Of a stretch of DNA of 25,871 nucleotides, positions 8,317 through 13,850 are shown in pieces. The stretch lies in IMG/VR virus record IMGVR_UViG_3300036719_000911, positions 1 through 25,871 of that record; one strand, given 5' to 3'. Each line of letters opens with the position of its first letter. The stretch's first letter is position 1. Origin of the DNA: a virus. A model generated the notes under the pieces. It was not told where the DNA came from. It ran no database searches and saw nothing but the letters and a program-made list of their open reading frames with translations. The position numbers and the translations under genes are program-made.

Positions 8317-8449
8317 CGATTATTCTCTGTTGACTTGAGATGCCGTCGTTATATCCACGCTTGTACTCGCCGATGCTTTTGTCAGCGAGTACGATAGCAC
8401 CCCAGTAGATTACCGCCATCGTGCTGGCGATTGCGACTAGGTTCATCAT
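8246..8449 (-). CDS. Small single-span membrane protein
   Basis: A 67-residue protein. Residues 3-21 form an N-terminal membrane span (NLVAIASTMAVIYWGAIVLA). The rest is basic and proline/glutamine-rich. Two adjacent ATG codons (ATGATG) overlap the stop of the upstream HTH gene, so translation is probably coupled. It may be an early membrane-directed protein such as a superinfection or host-envelope modulator; no sequence feature decides this. Its 3' third overlaps the zinc-ribbon gene. Confidence 0.65.
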   Translation of the reverse strand: MMNLVAIASTMAVIYWGAIVLADKSIGEYKRGYNDGISSQQRIIDEPKCEDKRKPKVVQRLQQPPRD

Positions 8450-8664
8450 AAGAGTGCCTTGATGTCTTTGATGGGTACCTCGAATGTCTCATGCACTTTC
8501 AGGATGAGGTTGGCTGTGACTGGCCTGCCTGACCTGAACTTACTGACGGCAGATGGTCCGACCTCTAGCATATGTGACAACTGATAGTCACTTCTGATAC
8601 CGAATCTTTCGATCAAAAAATCGAATAGGCGATGCGGCTTGTTGTTTACTTTTATTTTGCTCAT
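8446..8664 (-). CDS. Cro/CI-type helix-turn-helix DNA-binding protein
   Basis: A 72-residue regulator starting at ATG 8664, chosen because GGGGAG lies nine bases upstream; a longer start at 8694 has no such site. The motif DYQLSHMLEVGPSAVSKFRS is a typical XRE helix-turn-helix, followed by RPVTANLILKVHETF, which fits helices 4 and 5. It is a single-domain Cro-like protein with no protease or dimerisation domain. It may act at the divergent promoter region at 12318-12360, but it is far downstream in the same operon. Its 5' end overlaps the upstream gene by 77 bases. Confidence 0.85.
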   Translation of the reverse strand: MSKIKVNNKPHRLFDFLIERFGIRSDYQLSHMLEVGPSAVSKFRSGRPVTANLILKVHETFEVPIKDIKALL

Positions 8665-8815
8665 GTTGGTATTCTCCCCATGTTTGTTTGACATCTGTCT
8701 CTACTGATTTGCGCGGAACAAAGCGAGTCGGATCGCTCTGATCCTGTTCGCATATGTACTTCTTGCGGTCCCGTAGATACTGCTTTGCTATCTCAAGTTT
8801 GACGTTGTGGTCCAT
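8588..8815 (-). CDS. Small hypothetical protein overlapping recT and the HTH gene
   Basis: A 75-residue basic, helical protein (LEIAKQYLRDRKKYICEQD near the N-terminus). It fills the space between the RecT-type gene and the HTH gene, overlapping the former by 23 bases and the latter by 77. The C-terminal part falls in the overlap and has a less typical composition. Function is unknown. The moderate confidence reflects the long overlap. Confidence 0.6.
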   Translation of the reverse strand: MDHNVKLEIAKQYLRDRKKYICEQDQSDPTRFVPRKSVETDVKQTWGEYQHEQNKSKQQAASPIRFFDRKIRYQK

Positions 8816-11173: not shown

Positions 11174-11430
11174 GCCTCCGAGTAATCTTCGATCATATGC
11201 TCGGCGATTTCATGCCAATTAACCTCACTCAGGAAAGCCAGCGCGTAATCTTTGGCGAGTCCGTCATTGGTGGTGCAATCGATCAATGATTCGGCATGAT
11301 CTTTTAGTGCTTGCCCTAGATCGTAGGAATCTAGCCCGGTGCCGAAGTCGCTCGGTTCCATGCCATCAATCATCTCCAGATTGACGCGCCAAGTCGCGTA
11401 ATTAGTCCAGCCATTGTATTTGTTGTCCAT
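11170..11430 (-). CDS. NGWTNYATW-motif small protein
   Basis: An 86-residue protein started at ATG 11430, preceded by AAAAGGAAATGCAAA. Reading frames extending further upstream only overlap the neighbouring gene. The N-terminal motif NGWTNYATWRVNLEMIDG is shared by a widespread family of small phage and plasmid proteins (I believe DUF7249), with no settled function. Central helices (ALKDHAESLIDC) and a C-terminal NWHEIAEHMIEDY follow. It is one of several small promoter-proximal genes, each with its own ribosome binding site, a typical place for host-takeover or anti-defence proteins. Confidence 0.85.
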   Translation of the reverse strand: MDNKYNGWTNYATWRVNLEMIDGMEPSDFGTGLDSYDLGQALKDHAESLIDCTTNDGLAKDYALAFLSEVNWHEIAEHMIEDYSEA

Positions 11431-11449
11431 TTTGCATTTCCTTTTAGGT

Positions 11450-11662
11450 TTAAGCGTTGATAGAGAATTTCTCAATTTCGGCGGTAAGTTGCTCCACCGT
11501 GTAGATTTTGTTGATGCGCTTGCCGCTGCCGAAGAAGTGAGTGACGGTGTACTTACCATCTCGGCGAACGCCATAGATTCGCATCTCATGGCCTGATAGT
11601 CTGCCGTCAGCTTGACGATTCATGCTGCCGTAAACATCTTTAAATACTTTCATATTGTTCAT
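11450..11662 (-). CDS. Small hypothetical early protein
   Basis: A 70-residue protein started at ATG 11662 with GAAAGGAAATAGCAA upstream, the same translation-start layout as its neighbours. The central part, GHEMRIYGVRRDGKYTVTHF, looks like a small beta-sheet. The C-terminus (YTVEQLTAEIEKF) is helical. No family is recognised. It lies between two other small genes with 19- and 25-base gaps. Confidence 0.72.
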   Translation of the reverse strand: MNNMKVFKDVYGSMNRQADGRLSGHEMRIYGVRRDGKYTVTHFFGSGKRINKIYTVEQLTAEIEKFSINA

Positions 11663-11687
11663 TTGCTATTTCCTTTCAGGGTTAGCG

Positions 11688-11858: not shown

Positions 11859-12029
11859 TCAAACTATCGATTGTTCGTGATTTAGGGCAACGAAGCCGCC
11901 ACCCATCAATACAGCGCCACATAGGCAGAGAATTCCGCAGGCACTAACAGGGGCTGAGATGATGACAGCGAAGATGGTGAGGATGAAAAATACTAATGAC
12001 GAGAGGATGAGAGCTGTTGAATCTTTCAT
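11859..12029 (-). CDS. Small two-span membrane protein
   Basis: A 56-residue protein starting at ATG 12029. Two hydrophobic stretches (ALILSSLVFFILTIFAVIIS and CGILCLCGAVLMGGGFVAL) are joined by a short APVSA turn, giving an integral membrane hairpin with three clustered cysteines. The start lies in a repeated translation-initiation segment identical to that of the gene before it. An early phage membrane protein of this size could act on host envelope functions, but no specific role can be assigned. Confidence 0.72.
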   Translation of the reverse strand: MKDSTALILSSLVFFILTIFAVIISAPVSACGILCLCGAVLMGGGFVALNHEQSIV

Positions 12030-12057
12030 GATGTCGTTTCCTTTTAGGTTTAGACAG

Positions 12058-12077: not shown

Positions 12078-12269
12078 TTAGTTGCTTAATTCGTTGGCAG
12101 CTTCGATCAGGTTTGCAGCGTAGAACCCGACAATGTGCGGTTTTGCAACAGAGTACGCACCATCGTCTAAGTAGTTGGCACGATATAGCCAATATGCGCG
12201 CTCACCTGATAATCCGGTTTCTTGATATATCCAGATGGCTCCGCACTGTTCTGTGATTATGTTTTCCAT
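12078..12269 (-). CDS. First gene of the leftward early operon, unknown function
   Basis: A 63-residue protein started at ATG 12269, with AAAAGGAAACGACATC upstream. The sequence (CGAIWIYQETGLSGERAYWL, then VGFYAANLIEAANELSN) has a beta-rich front and a C-terminal helix. No family is recognised. As the promoter-proximal gene, about 50 bases from the leftward -10 hexamer, it should be the earliest and strongest expressed protein of this operon. That is where phages often place host-takeover or anti-defence factors. Confidence 0.75.
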   Translation of the reverse strand: MENIITEQCGAIWIYQETGLSGERAYWLYRANYLDDGAYSVAKPHIVGFYAANLIEAANELSN

Positions 12270-12317
12270 GATGTCGTTTCCTTTTAGGTTTGACGTTTAT
12301 CAAGTGATGCGGAACTA

Positions 12318-12345
12318 AGTATAGGCATTGCTTGGCAAATGACAA
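12318..12345 (-). promoter_or_regulatory. Strong sigma70-type leftward early promoter
   Basis: Read leftward: TTGTCA (12345-12340), a 16-base spacer and TATACT (12323-12318). Both hexamers match five of six consensus positions. It is well placed to drive the whole leftward operon beginning at 12269. The -35 lies within a dyad at 12331-12346. Confidence 0.75.
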
Positions 12346-12346
12346 G
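12331..12346. promoter_or_regulatory. Dyad operator candidate between divergent promoters
   Basis: CTTGGCAAATGACAAG is symmetric as CTTGnCAnnTGnCAAG (12 of 16 positions). It covers the -35 hexamers of both the leftward and rightward candidate promoters, so one bound regulator could control both directions. The ribbon-helix-helix protein encoded 44 bases away or the Cro-like HTH protein are the obvious candidates. Confidence 0.6.
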
Positions 12347-12360
12347 TAATATATTTTAAT
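12332..12360 (+). promoter_or_regulatory. Rightward sigma70-type promoter candidate
   Basis: TTGGCA (12332-12337), a 17-base spacer and TTTAAT (12355-12360) point toward the ribbon-helix-helix gene, giving a leader of roughly 23 bases. The hexamers are weaker than those of the overlapping leftward promoter. Confidence 0.5.
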
Positions 12361-12389
12361 CATTGCCTGCATTGTGATAGATTCCGCAA

Positions 12390-12572
12390 ATGGCACATAA
12401 GGCTACATTACTTAGGTTGCGTCCTGAGATACGCGAGATGCTCGACAAGCTTGCGGCAGATCAGCGTCGAAGCAGAGTAAGCATCGTTGAGGCGGCAGTA
12501 CGGGAATATTACCGCAGCAGAGAGAGTACAGAAGATAAACTTAGCAGGATGATAACTAATGCAAAGCTTTGA
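12390..12572 (+). CDS. Ribbon-helix-helix (CopG/Arc-type) regulator
   Basis: A 60-residue protein. The N-terminal strand ATLLRLRPEI is followed by two helices (EMLDKLAADQRRSR and SIVEAAVREYYRSR), which is the CopG/Arc ribbon-helix-helix plan; such proteins bind DNA as dimers of dimers through the strand. No clear ribosome binding site precedes ATG 12390, so translation may be weak, as suits a repressor. It sits beside the divergent promoter dyad and overlaps the initiator-like gene by 14 bases. Autoregulation at 12331-12346 is the simplest hypothesis. Confidence 0.85.
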   Translation: MAHKATLLRLRPEIREMLDKLAADQRRSRVSIVEAAVREYYRSRESTEDKLSRMITNAKL

Positions 12573-13314
12573 GTTACCAGAAGCCCCGAGGATAAGGGAA
12601 GCGAAGCCGATTGATCGGAGAATGTATTCAGTAGTGCCGATCAGGGCAGCGAGTGACAAGCGGCTGAGAGCTACAGCATGGCGAGTATTGGTTAGCGTAT
12701 GCAGCTATGCGAACAGGGCAGGCCTCTGCTGGCCGGGATATGAAAACCTAGCCGCAACCCACGGAGTAACTCGGCAGGCAGTAGGCAGGCAGATCAAGAA
12801 GCTTATCGCTTACGGCTATTTGCAAAAGGTTAAGAATCATTCATGGGGCAGGACAGCGCAAATACTCAGAGTTATCTATGATGAAACATTGTCTGATAGG
12901 CAATTGCTTGAGCGCATACCCTTCGAAGAGAAACCGCCGGGGCATCAGTGGAAAGTGTTAAAAGATGCGGAGGAAGAATTTAACAATCCCGAACAAATGG
13001 GGACACACCAAGAGGTTGCTATAACGGCAAGCAGGAAGGATGAGGGGGAGCTAGTAACAAAAGCATATATAGCAAGATGGATATCTCTCAATCGTCAGGC
13101 AGGCTTTAGCAGGTTAGCAACGCCTGAGGATGAGGTAGTCATTGCTGAGTTAGCAGCGGCAGGGGTGACAGTGCCTGTACTTGATGACATCGTGAGGGCT
13201 GTCCTTGCTGCTGTAGCAGGGACTAGCCGTGAGCCGCCACATAGAATCAGTGCATTTAGGCGGCAGGCTATCGATGCCGTATCGAAAGAGGACCATGCTC
13301 CCCCCTTACCGTAG
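12559..13314 (+). CDS. Winged-helix replication-initiator-like protein
   Basis: A 251-residue protein. Residues about 36-100 form a winged helix-turn-helix: WRVLVSVCSYANRAGLCWPG, then YENLAATHGVTRQAVGRQIK and KLIAYGYLQKVKNH. This matches the HTH domain of phage and plasmid replication initiator proteins. The C-terminal part (ISLNRQAGFSRL onward) is helical and unlike the N-terminus. It probably binds the origin and brings in host helicase factors, but no helicase motif is present. It starts at ATG 12559 with AGGA eight bases upstream. The following 536 bases are non-coding and may hold its target. Confidence 0.75.
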   Translation: MQSFELPEAPRIREAKPIDRRMYSVVPIRAASDKRLRATAWRVLVSVCSYANRAGLCWPGYENLAATHGVTRQAVGRQIKKLIAYGYLQKVKNHSWGRTAQILRVIYDETLSDRQLLERIPFEEKPPGHQWKVLKDAEEEFNNPEQMGTHQEVAITASRKDEGELVTKAYIARWISLNRQAGFSRLATPEDEVVIAELAAAGVTVPVLDDIVRAVLAAVAGTSREPPHRISAFRRQAIDAVSKEDHAPPLP

Positions 13315-13850
13315 GTATGTGGGCGTGGGTACTCCGCTCAATTTTTCCCAGCTTTTTAGCCGTTTGCAGGCTGGTTTTTGCCGAGCGGCAGCCGAGAAAC
13401 TGCTGCGATGGCCTTGTTCCACTGCCTTGTTTATAACGTGACGGCCCGGAACCGAGGGAGGTTTAGAACTTTTAATTATATAAAATGGGGAGTCTCGGTT
13501 CCTCTGGGCTGGGTGCTGGCCCGGCAGTGGTGAGGTTGAGGCTAGGTACCTCACGGGGTGGACGATAGAACACCTAACCCATATTTTTTTATGGGTAGAA
13601 TCCATTGCTGGATGCTTGCTCTTGTTTATCTAGGCTAACAGAGGTGTCAGTCTCTGCAAGAACTATGTGTCCCGATATTCTCTACCTGATCCCATCCGGG
13701 GGTATGAATAAGGAGTACCGTCCTATTCGCCACGTTTATTCCCTTGGTCGCAAGCTACCTACGGGAGGGCTGGGTCATAGCCCCGAAATGAAGTATAGTG
13801 GATGAGCAGAATACTGCAAATAACTTTTAGTAATCTCTTTGGAGAGCCAT
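13315..13850. other. Non-coding region with several hairpins
   Basis: No convincing gene is present. Inverted repeats include GGAACCGAG/CTCGGTTCC (13448-13502), ACCCATA/TATGGGT (13577-13596), CAGAG/CTCTG (13639-13656) and GGGCT/AGCCC (13767-13783). A 46-codon frame from ATG 13665 (ending at 13805) is possible but lacks a good ribosome binding site. The spacing after an initiator-like gene suggests an origin, a regulatory RNA or both. Confidence 0.6.
13448..13502. other. Candidate replication origin: AT-rich core within inverted repeats
   Basis: Perfect 9-base arms GGAACCGAG (13448-13456) and CTCGGTTCC (13494-13502) enclose 37 bases whose centre, TTTTAATTATATAAAAT, is the most AT-rich run in the region. 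It lies about 135 bases after the initiator-like gene. An initiator-binding dyad around an unwinding element would look like this; a structured RNA is the alternative. Confidence 0.4.

Follow-up and report, generated by a model that had tools for sequence, protein, structure and literature searches.

A divergent early control region with a proposed operator and a predicted leaderless first gene in a MEP301-like phage

The divergent early genes of the phage sequence analysed here raise the question of how one short intergenic region might govern transcription in both directions, and whether that region belongs to a switch of the lambda type. The window, which is the whole stretch of DNA analysed (25,871 bases), is an IMG/VR virus record and represents an incomplete genome; it has no DNA-level match in the phage collection. 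The comparison with relatives favours, with a probability of about 0.68 for the model as a whole, a divergent early control region that combines a leftward promoter, a leaderless rightward extended -10 promoter and an operator, O1 (Table 1).

The closest cultured phage is Methylophilales phage MEP301 (MW452941), with a TerL identity of 77.5%, and both TerL and the early gene order place the window among MEP301-like phages. MEP301 is short-tailed and was reported to be without RNA and DNA polymerases (PMC8024684). The window phage is read as MEP301-like, probably short-tailed, and dependent on host RNA polymerase. MEP301 shares with the window a gene order in which a divergent YqaJ operon faces an O-like gene, but its O-like gene is not separated from the control region by a ribbon-helix-helix (RHH) gene, and its dyad (AACACG-6-CGTGTT) differs from that of the window. 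Further relatives were drawn from viral contigs via O-like, RHH and YqaJ proteins; the longest are 33-36 kb, and some of these have one gene family represented at each of their two ends, a pattern that fits near-complete permuted genomes. If the model holds, this lineage of aquatic phages, related to a phage of streamlined methylotrophs, would offer a directly testable case, seen across the lineage, of a first early gene (for the RHH protein or the replication initiator) without a leader, together with a defined proposed operator and a cultured relative in MEP301. It would also probe whether phages with no apparent lysogeny make use of divergent control in the lambda style.

Table 1. Coordinates of the features of the early control region and its neighbouring genes in the window
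Feature	Position	Strand	Remarks
Cro/HigA-like HTH protein	8446-8694	-	candidate O1 binder; leftward operon; PHROG regulator
First leftward gene, 63 aa	12078-12269	-	unknown function; SD-bearing leader AAACCTAAAAGGAAACGACATC
O2, TTTGACGTTTATCAAG	12289-12304	.	weaker second copy, 9/10 core; candidate second operator
Leftward promoter -10, TATACT	12318-12323	-	16-nt spacer; start predicted near 12311
O1, 16-bp dyad CTTGGCAAATGACAAG	12331-12346	.	core TTGnCRnnYGnCAA at -58 to -45 from RHH ATG; proposed operator
Leftward promoter -35, TTGTCA	12340-12345	-	inside right arm of O1
Earlier rightward -10, TTTAAT (rejected)	12355-12360	+	lacks A at position 2; ATTGAT, TTCTAT in relatives
Rightward promoter, extended -10 TGTGATAGATT	12373-12383	+	TRTGnTAnnnT; replaces earlier TTGGCA-17-TTTAAT
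Predicted rightward transcription start	12390	+	A of RHH ATG; spacing from -10; no Shine-Dalgarno; in-frame TAG
RHH (Arc/CopG-like) protein, 60 aa	12390-12572	+	first rightward gene
Lambda O-like replication initiator	12559-13314	+	overlaps RHH end; SD-like AGGA upstream; PHROG O-like E 6.5e-9, HTH_36 E 5.6e-11

A sequence-only reading of the window had named an RHH gene as the first rightward gene and a Cro-like HTH gene in the leftward operon, and both genes lie in those positions, the first being a probable RHH gene. The RHH protein scores 20.3 bits against PF01402 (cut-off 20.5) and matches an Arc-like PHROG at E 2.5e-4, with weak PDB matches to CopG; its AlphaFold monomer (pLDDT 79) has a helix in place of the expected ribbon strand and was set aside. 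The HTH protein matches a PHROG regulator and has a lambda-repressor-like fold, its closest solved structures being HigA, GraA and Cro (Foldseek probability 1.0 but E about 0.1). Its gene lies 3.6 kb from O1, behind RecT and YqaJ.

Upstream regions of 41 RHH loci were compared and sorted into five operator classes: class A, the window type; class B, with TATCTTG-12-CAAGATA; class C, TTGATTGTTACTATCAA-like; class D, with GTGTCAC/TGTTACA repeats; and class E, with ATTGGCGAACGTCAAT. Class B and class C control regions (L026, L066) share the 14-mer TTTTCCTGCCGTCA, in opposite orientation with respect to the genes, as though the operator had been turned round, an arrangement seen by eye that would link class C to A and B.

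On the rightward side, the distance from the end of the motif TGATAnnnT to the RHH ATG is exactly 6 nt in all 23 distinct relatives, a set with members of all five operator classes; of 530 other conserved gene starts, none has the motif at this distance. The window sequence matches the extended -10 consensus, TRTGnTAnnnT, of which TG and TAnnnT are kept in all 23, the first T of TRTG being missing in class E, L035 and L084; no conserved -35 was found for this promoter in the relatives. The RHH gene has no Shine-Dalgarno (SD) sequence, as judged by anti-SD duplex energies (median +0.6 kcal/mol in 21 relatives, compared with -5.5 at 152 core gene starts); the longest-SD-match measure, contaminated by GTGA, was ignored. 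There is an in-frame TAG at 12378, 12 nt upstream of the ATG. Together, the lack of an SD sequence and the extended -10 at a fixed 6-nt distance predict a leaderless RHH mRNA, which would begin at the gene's own ATG.

The same placement recurs where the RHH gene is absent. In MEP301 (TATAAT), L115, L121, L123 and L128, a -10 of the TATAAT/TATACT type lies 6 nt before the O-like ATG, as it does in 12 of 21 further novel upstream sequences that were retrieved via an unrelated DNA pattern, several of them with TTGACC-16-TATACT. Exceptions in this distant set are a 7-nt distance in L114 and L194, other departures from the exact 6-nt spacing in L211 and others, an insertion in L120, and other genes directly upstream in L224, L227 and L246. 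These RHH-less relatives bear on the proposal that TGATAnnnT is a binding site of the RHH protein and not a promoter, the message starting elsewhere. Arc-type proteins bind short TAGA-like sites, and the A at -13 is invariant though the promoter consensus does not require it, but canonical -10s at the same distance from the first gene where no RHH gene exists, and the lack of an SD sequence to serve a longer leader, make this proposal distinctly unlikely.

The rightward promoter had earlier been placed at TTGGCA (12332-12337), 17 nt and TTTAAT. These letters are present, and in the reading built on them two overlapping sigma-70 promoters have their -35 hexamers face to face in one dyad and a single occupied site silences both. 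This reading is very unlikely: the hexamers occur at legal spacings and TTTAAT is retained in class A and L009, but this -10 is replaced by ATTGAT or TTCTAT in relatives where the left arm of the dyad stays, it lacks the A at position 2, and the extended -10 downstream is invariant in all operator classes. TTGGCA-17-TTTAAT was rejected as the rightward promoter on conservation, and a consensus scan also declines the pair. The invariant extended -10 lies some 40 bases beyond the left arm of the dyad, on its downstream side, and sets the start at the RHH ATG. The left arm is therefore not a -35 and the dyad is not shared by two -35s, so that the conservation of this arm points to an operator.

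The leftward pair, TTGTCA-16-TATACT, is present where it had been described, and conservation in relatives supports it. Class A, L009 and class E keep a -35 of TTGTCA, TTGCCA or TTGACG, a -10 of TATACT, TATAAT or TATCCT, and a spacer of 16, while class B has TTGATT or TTGTTT, the same spacer, and TATAAT or TATACT; in L084 the promoter fits at spacer 15 only. A consensus scan of 9-16 kb found promoter-like sites at background (8 found, 7.8 expected). It is the comparison with relatives only that lifts this promoter and the dyad above chance.

The O1 dyad contains both of the hexamers formerly read as -35s and pairs at 6 of 8 positions, its letters and coordinates having been given correctly. 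Within the window alone it is not beyond chance, dinucleotide shuffles of the 120-bp intergenic region giving the palindrome a P of 0.47 at 16 bp and of 0.055 at 24 bp. Among relatives, 11 class A sequences, L009, L021, L022 and L084 have the complete core TTGnCRnnYGnCAA (10/10), in each case located exactly at -58 relative to the RHH ATG. Between the four diverged groups, identity is 80-90% at the ten specified core positions, compared with 36-59% at the other positions of the 90-base region. Within class A, the 16 bases vary at position 12 only, on which the dyad sets no constraint. Class E has two of six dyad pairs altered on both sides with pairing retained (C-G to A-T, A-T to G-C); L009 and L084 retain only 4 of 8 dyad pairs despite the core match. 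Classes B, C and D, which are more diverged, have other operator sequences and lack the exact dyad. An extension to 24 bp (ATTn...nAAT) was dropped, its left arm being variable inside class A.

Whether the dyad or just its flanking hexamers persisted in related phages had been put forward as a test, and its outcome favours the dyad in groups A, L009, E and L084. The dyad is conserved together with its position relative to both transcription units, and can reasonably be read as an operator common to the two. The dyad could instead be a by-product, its right arm being just the leftward -35 and its left arm chance or a secondary rightward -35, with no operator at all. Facing -35 hexamers yield a TTGnCA..TGnCAA dyad automatically, and the dyad is not significant in the window alone, but groups E and L084 keep the left arm without a good -10 after it, and the compensatory changes in E and the fixed position at -58 also argue against this explanation, which is unlikely.

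A weaker copy of the core, O2, has its centre 42 bp from that of O1 and lies a short way downstream of where leftward transcription is predicted to start. In class A, L021, L022 and L084 it is located at -100 to -103 and matches the core at 9/10, or at 8/10 in some members of class A, and the distance between the two copies, taken from match positions, is 42 bp in class A and L021, 43 in L084 and 45 in L022. Further copies were searched for with a relaxed pattern, which matched exactly once, within the capsid gene (22254), and not at other promoters.

In the proposed model, TTGTCA-16-TATACT would drive the leftward recombination and accessory operon, whose genes are SD-led, and the rightward extended -10 would start transcription at the A of the RHH start codon, so that the RHH message is leaderless and continues into the O-like initiator. 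The comparison shows conservation, positions and spacing, whereas the use of the promoters, the leaderless state of the message and protein binding are inferred. O1 overlaps the leftward -35 and spans -59 to -44 of the predicted rightward start. A dimer bound there would cover the leftward -35 and block initiation to the left, and may modulate, possibly activate, the rightward promoter; we infer the sign of this rightward effect from the location of O1, from which an activator could contact RNA polymerase from the upstream side, and from the lack of a conserved -35 at this promoter. O2 may bind cooperatively with O1. Control of both directions by one occupied site, as first suggested, would still be possible under this model, although not via overlapping -35s.

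O1 is probably bound by one of the small regulators that the phage itself encodes. The RHH protein was rejected as sole cognate of all operators, its ribbon KATLLRL being unchanged across classes A, B, C and D while the operators of B and D are unrelated. The HTH protein was rejected in the same role, being identical in the window (class A) and in G004/L015 (class C), and also between L084 and L086, whose operators differ. Each candidate thus fails one test of covariation with the operator, and neither explains all operator classes; the chances are some two in five for the RHH protein, slightly over one in three for the HTH protein, and one in four for a host or unrecognised protein.

Of the features of a lambda-type lysis-lysogeny switch, divergent promoters with proposed operators between them are present, as judged by sequence, but searches of 14 related records, several of them near full length, found no tyrosine integrase (PF00589), no serine recombinase (PF00239) and no S24 (CI-type) repressor (PF00717), the last search being positive in control genomes. 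A lysogeny switch is unsupported because neither an integrase nor a CI-type repressor was found. It has also been stated that a functional integrase may be missing from MEP301 (PMC8024684). A true lambda-type switch in a temperate phage with unrecognised integration genes would agree with the leaderless regulator facing an early promoter, as in lambda cI/PRM, and with the occurrence of one distant TerL relative (65%) inside a 186-kb Hyphomicrobiales MAG contig, but given these absences it is highly improbable. That contig (L164; JAIXTP010000026.1, 186,520 bases) also holds related portal, capsid and tail genes and is possibly a prophage of the wider lineage. Four other MAG matches are short contigs with conflicting taxonomy, probably mis-binned phage.

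Comparison with known systems places the window region as resembling part of a lambda-type region; by the tests made, it is not a member of the lambda switch. Lambda immR (PRM/PR, OR1-3) and PaaR2/YdaS of the Escherichia coli O157:H7 prophage CP-933P likewise have a short divergent intergenic region with operators between the promoters. The lambda cI and paaR2 messages start at their own AUG, which is unusual and is also predicted for the window RHH gene, and for PaaR2 this was proven by 5' RACE and N-terminal sequencing (PMC8630535). The window differs from both in having an RHH gene in place of a CI/PaaR2-type regulator, a leaderless operon that runs on into the replication initiator, an HTH gene that is distant and not first in its operon, and a phage group in which no integrase or S24 repressor was found. 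A leaderless regulator opposite an early promoter is therefore already known, and what is predicted here is an RHH protein or an initiator in that role. In P22 immI, the arc/mnt region, an RHH repressor gene lies at a divergent early promoter region; the likeness to the window is at the level of the RHH family only, and no antirepressor gene was recognised in the window. It is conceivable, though doubtful, that a lineage without lysogeny genes keeps immunity-like operator modules (A to E) and swaps them as cassettes, while the leaderless early promoter that they accompany stays invariant. Their purpose would then be the timing of replication relative to recombination, or the exclusion of related phages, and not the maintenance of lysogeny.

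Downstream of the control region, a non-coding conserved block (13549-13839) between the O-like and SSB-like genes contains a 172-nt structured RNA candidate (13613-13784). Relatives with an O protein of only about 46-49% identity are 85-90% identical in this block. Covariation was seen in a closing helix (GCTTGC/GCAAGC), a crossing, pseudoknot-forming helix (TCCC/GGGA) and a GGGCT hairpin; over these three helices, which were picked on the same alignment used for the covariation test, pairing extends to 98.3% of cells, both partners have changed in 10 of 15 pairs, and none of 500 shuffles scored as high. Sliding the helix partners by one base destroys the pairing signal. About ten variants of the closing helix are fully paired among 103 viral-contig matches, and terminase or O-like relatives accompany 86 of the 103 loci. 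Rfam gave no match to 13613-13784 even at E 5, and the element is a candidate for a new phage RNA family with a pseudoknot. In the close relatives L016/L020 (G006), L008 and L046 the block after 13547 is unmatched, as if missing or replaced.

In the leftward operon, the first gene varies even among close relatives, and similar SD-bearing leaders (AAACCTAAAAGGAAA...) precede four leftward genes, at 11423-11452, 11655-11684, 12023-12052 and 12263-12292, as if early accessory genes travelled as cassettes, each with its own leader.
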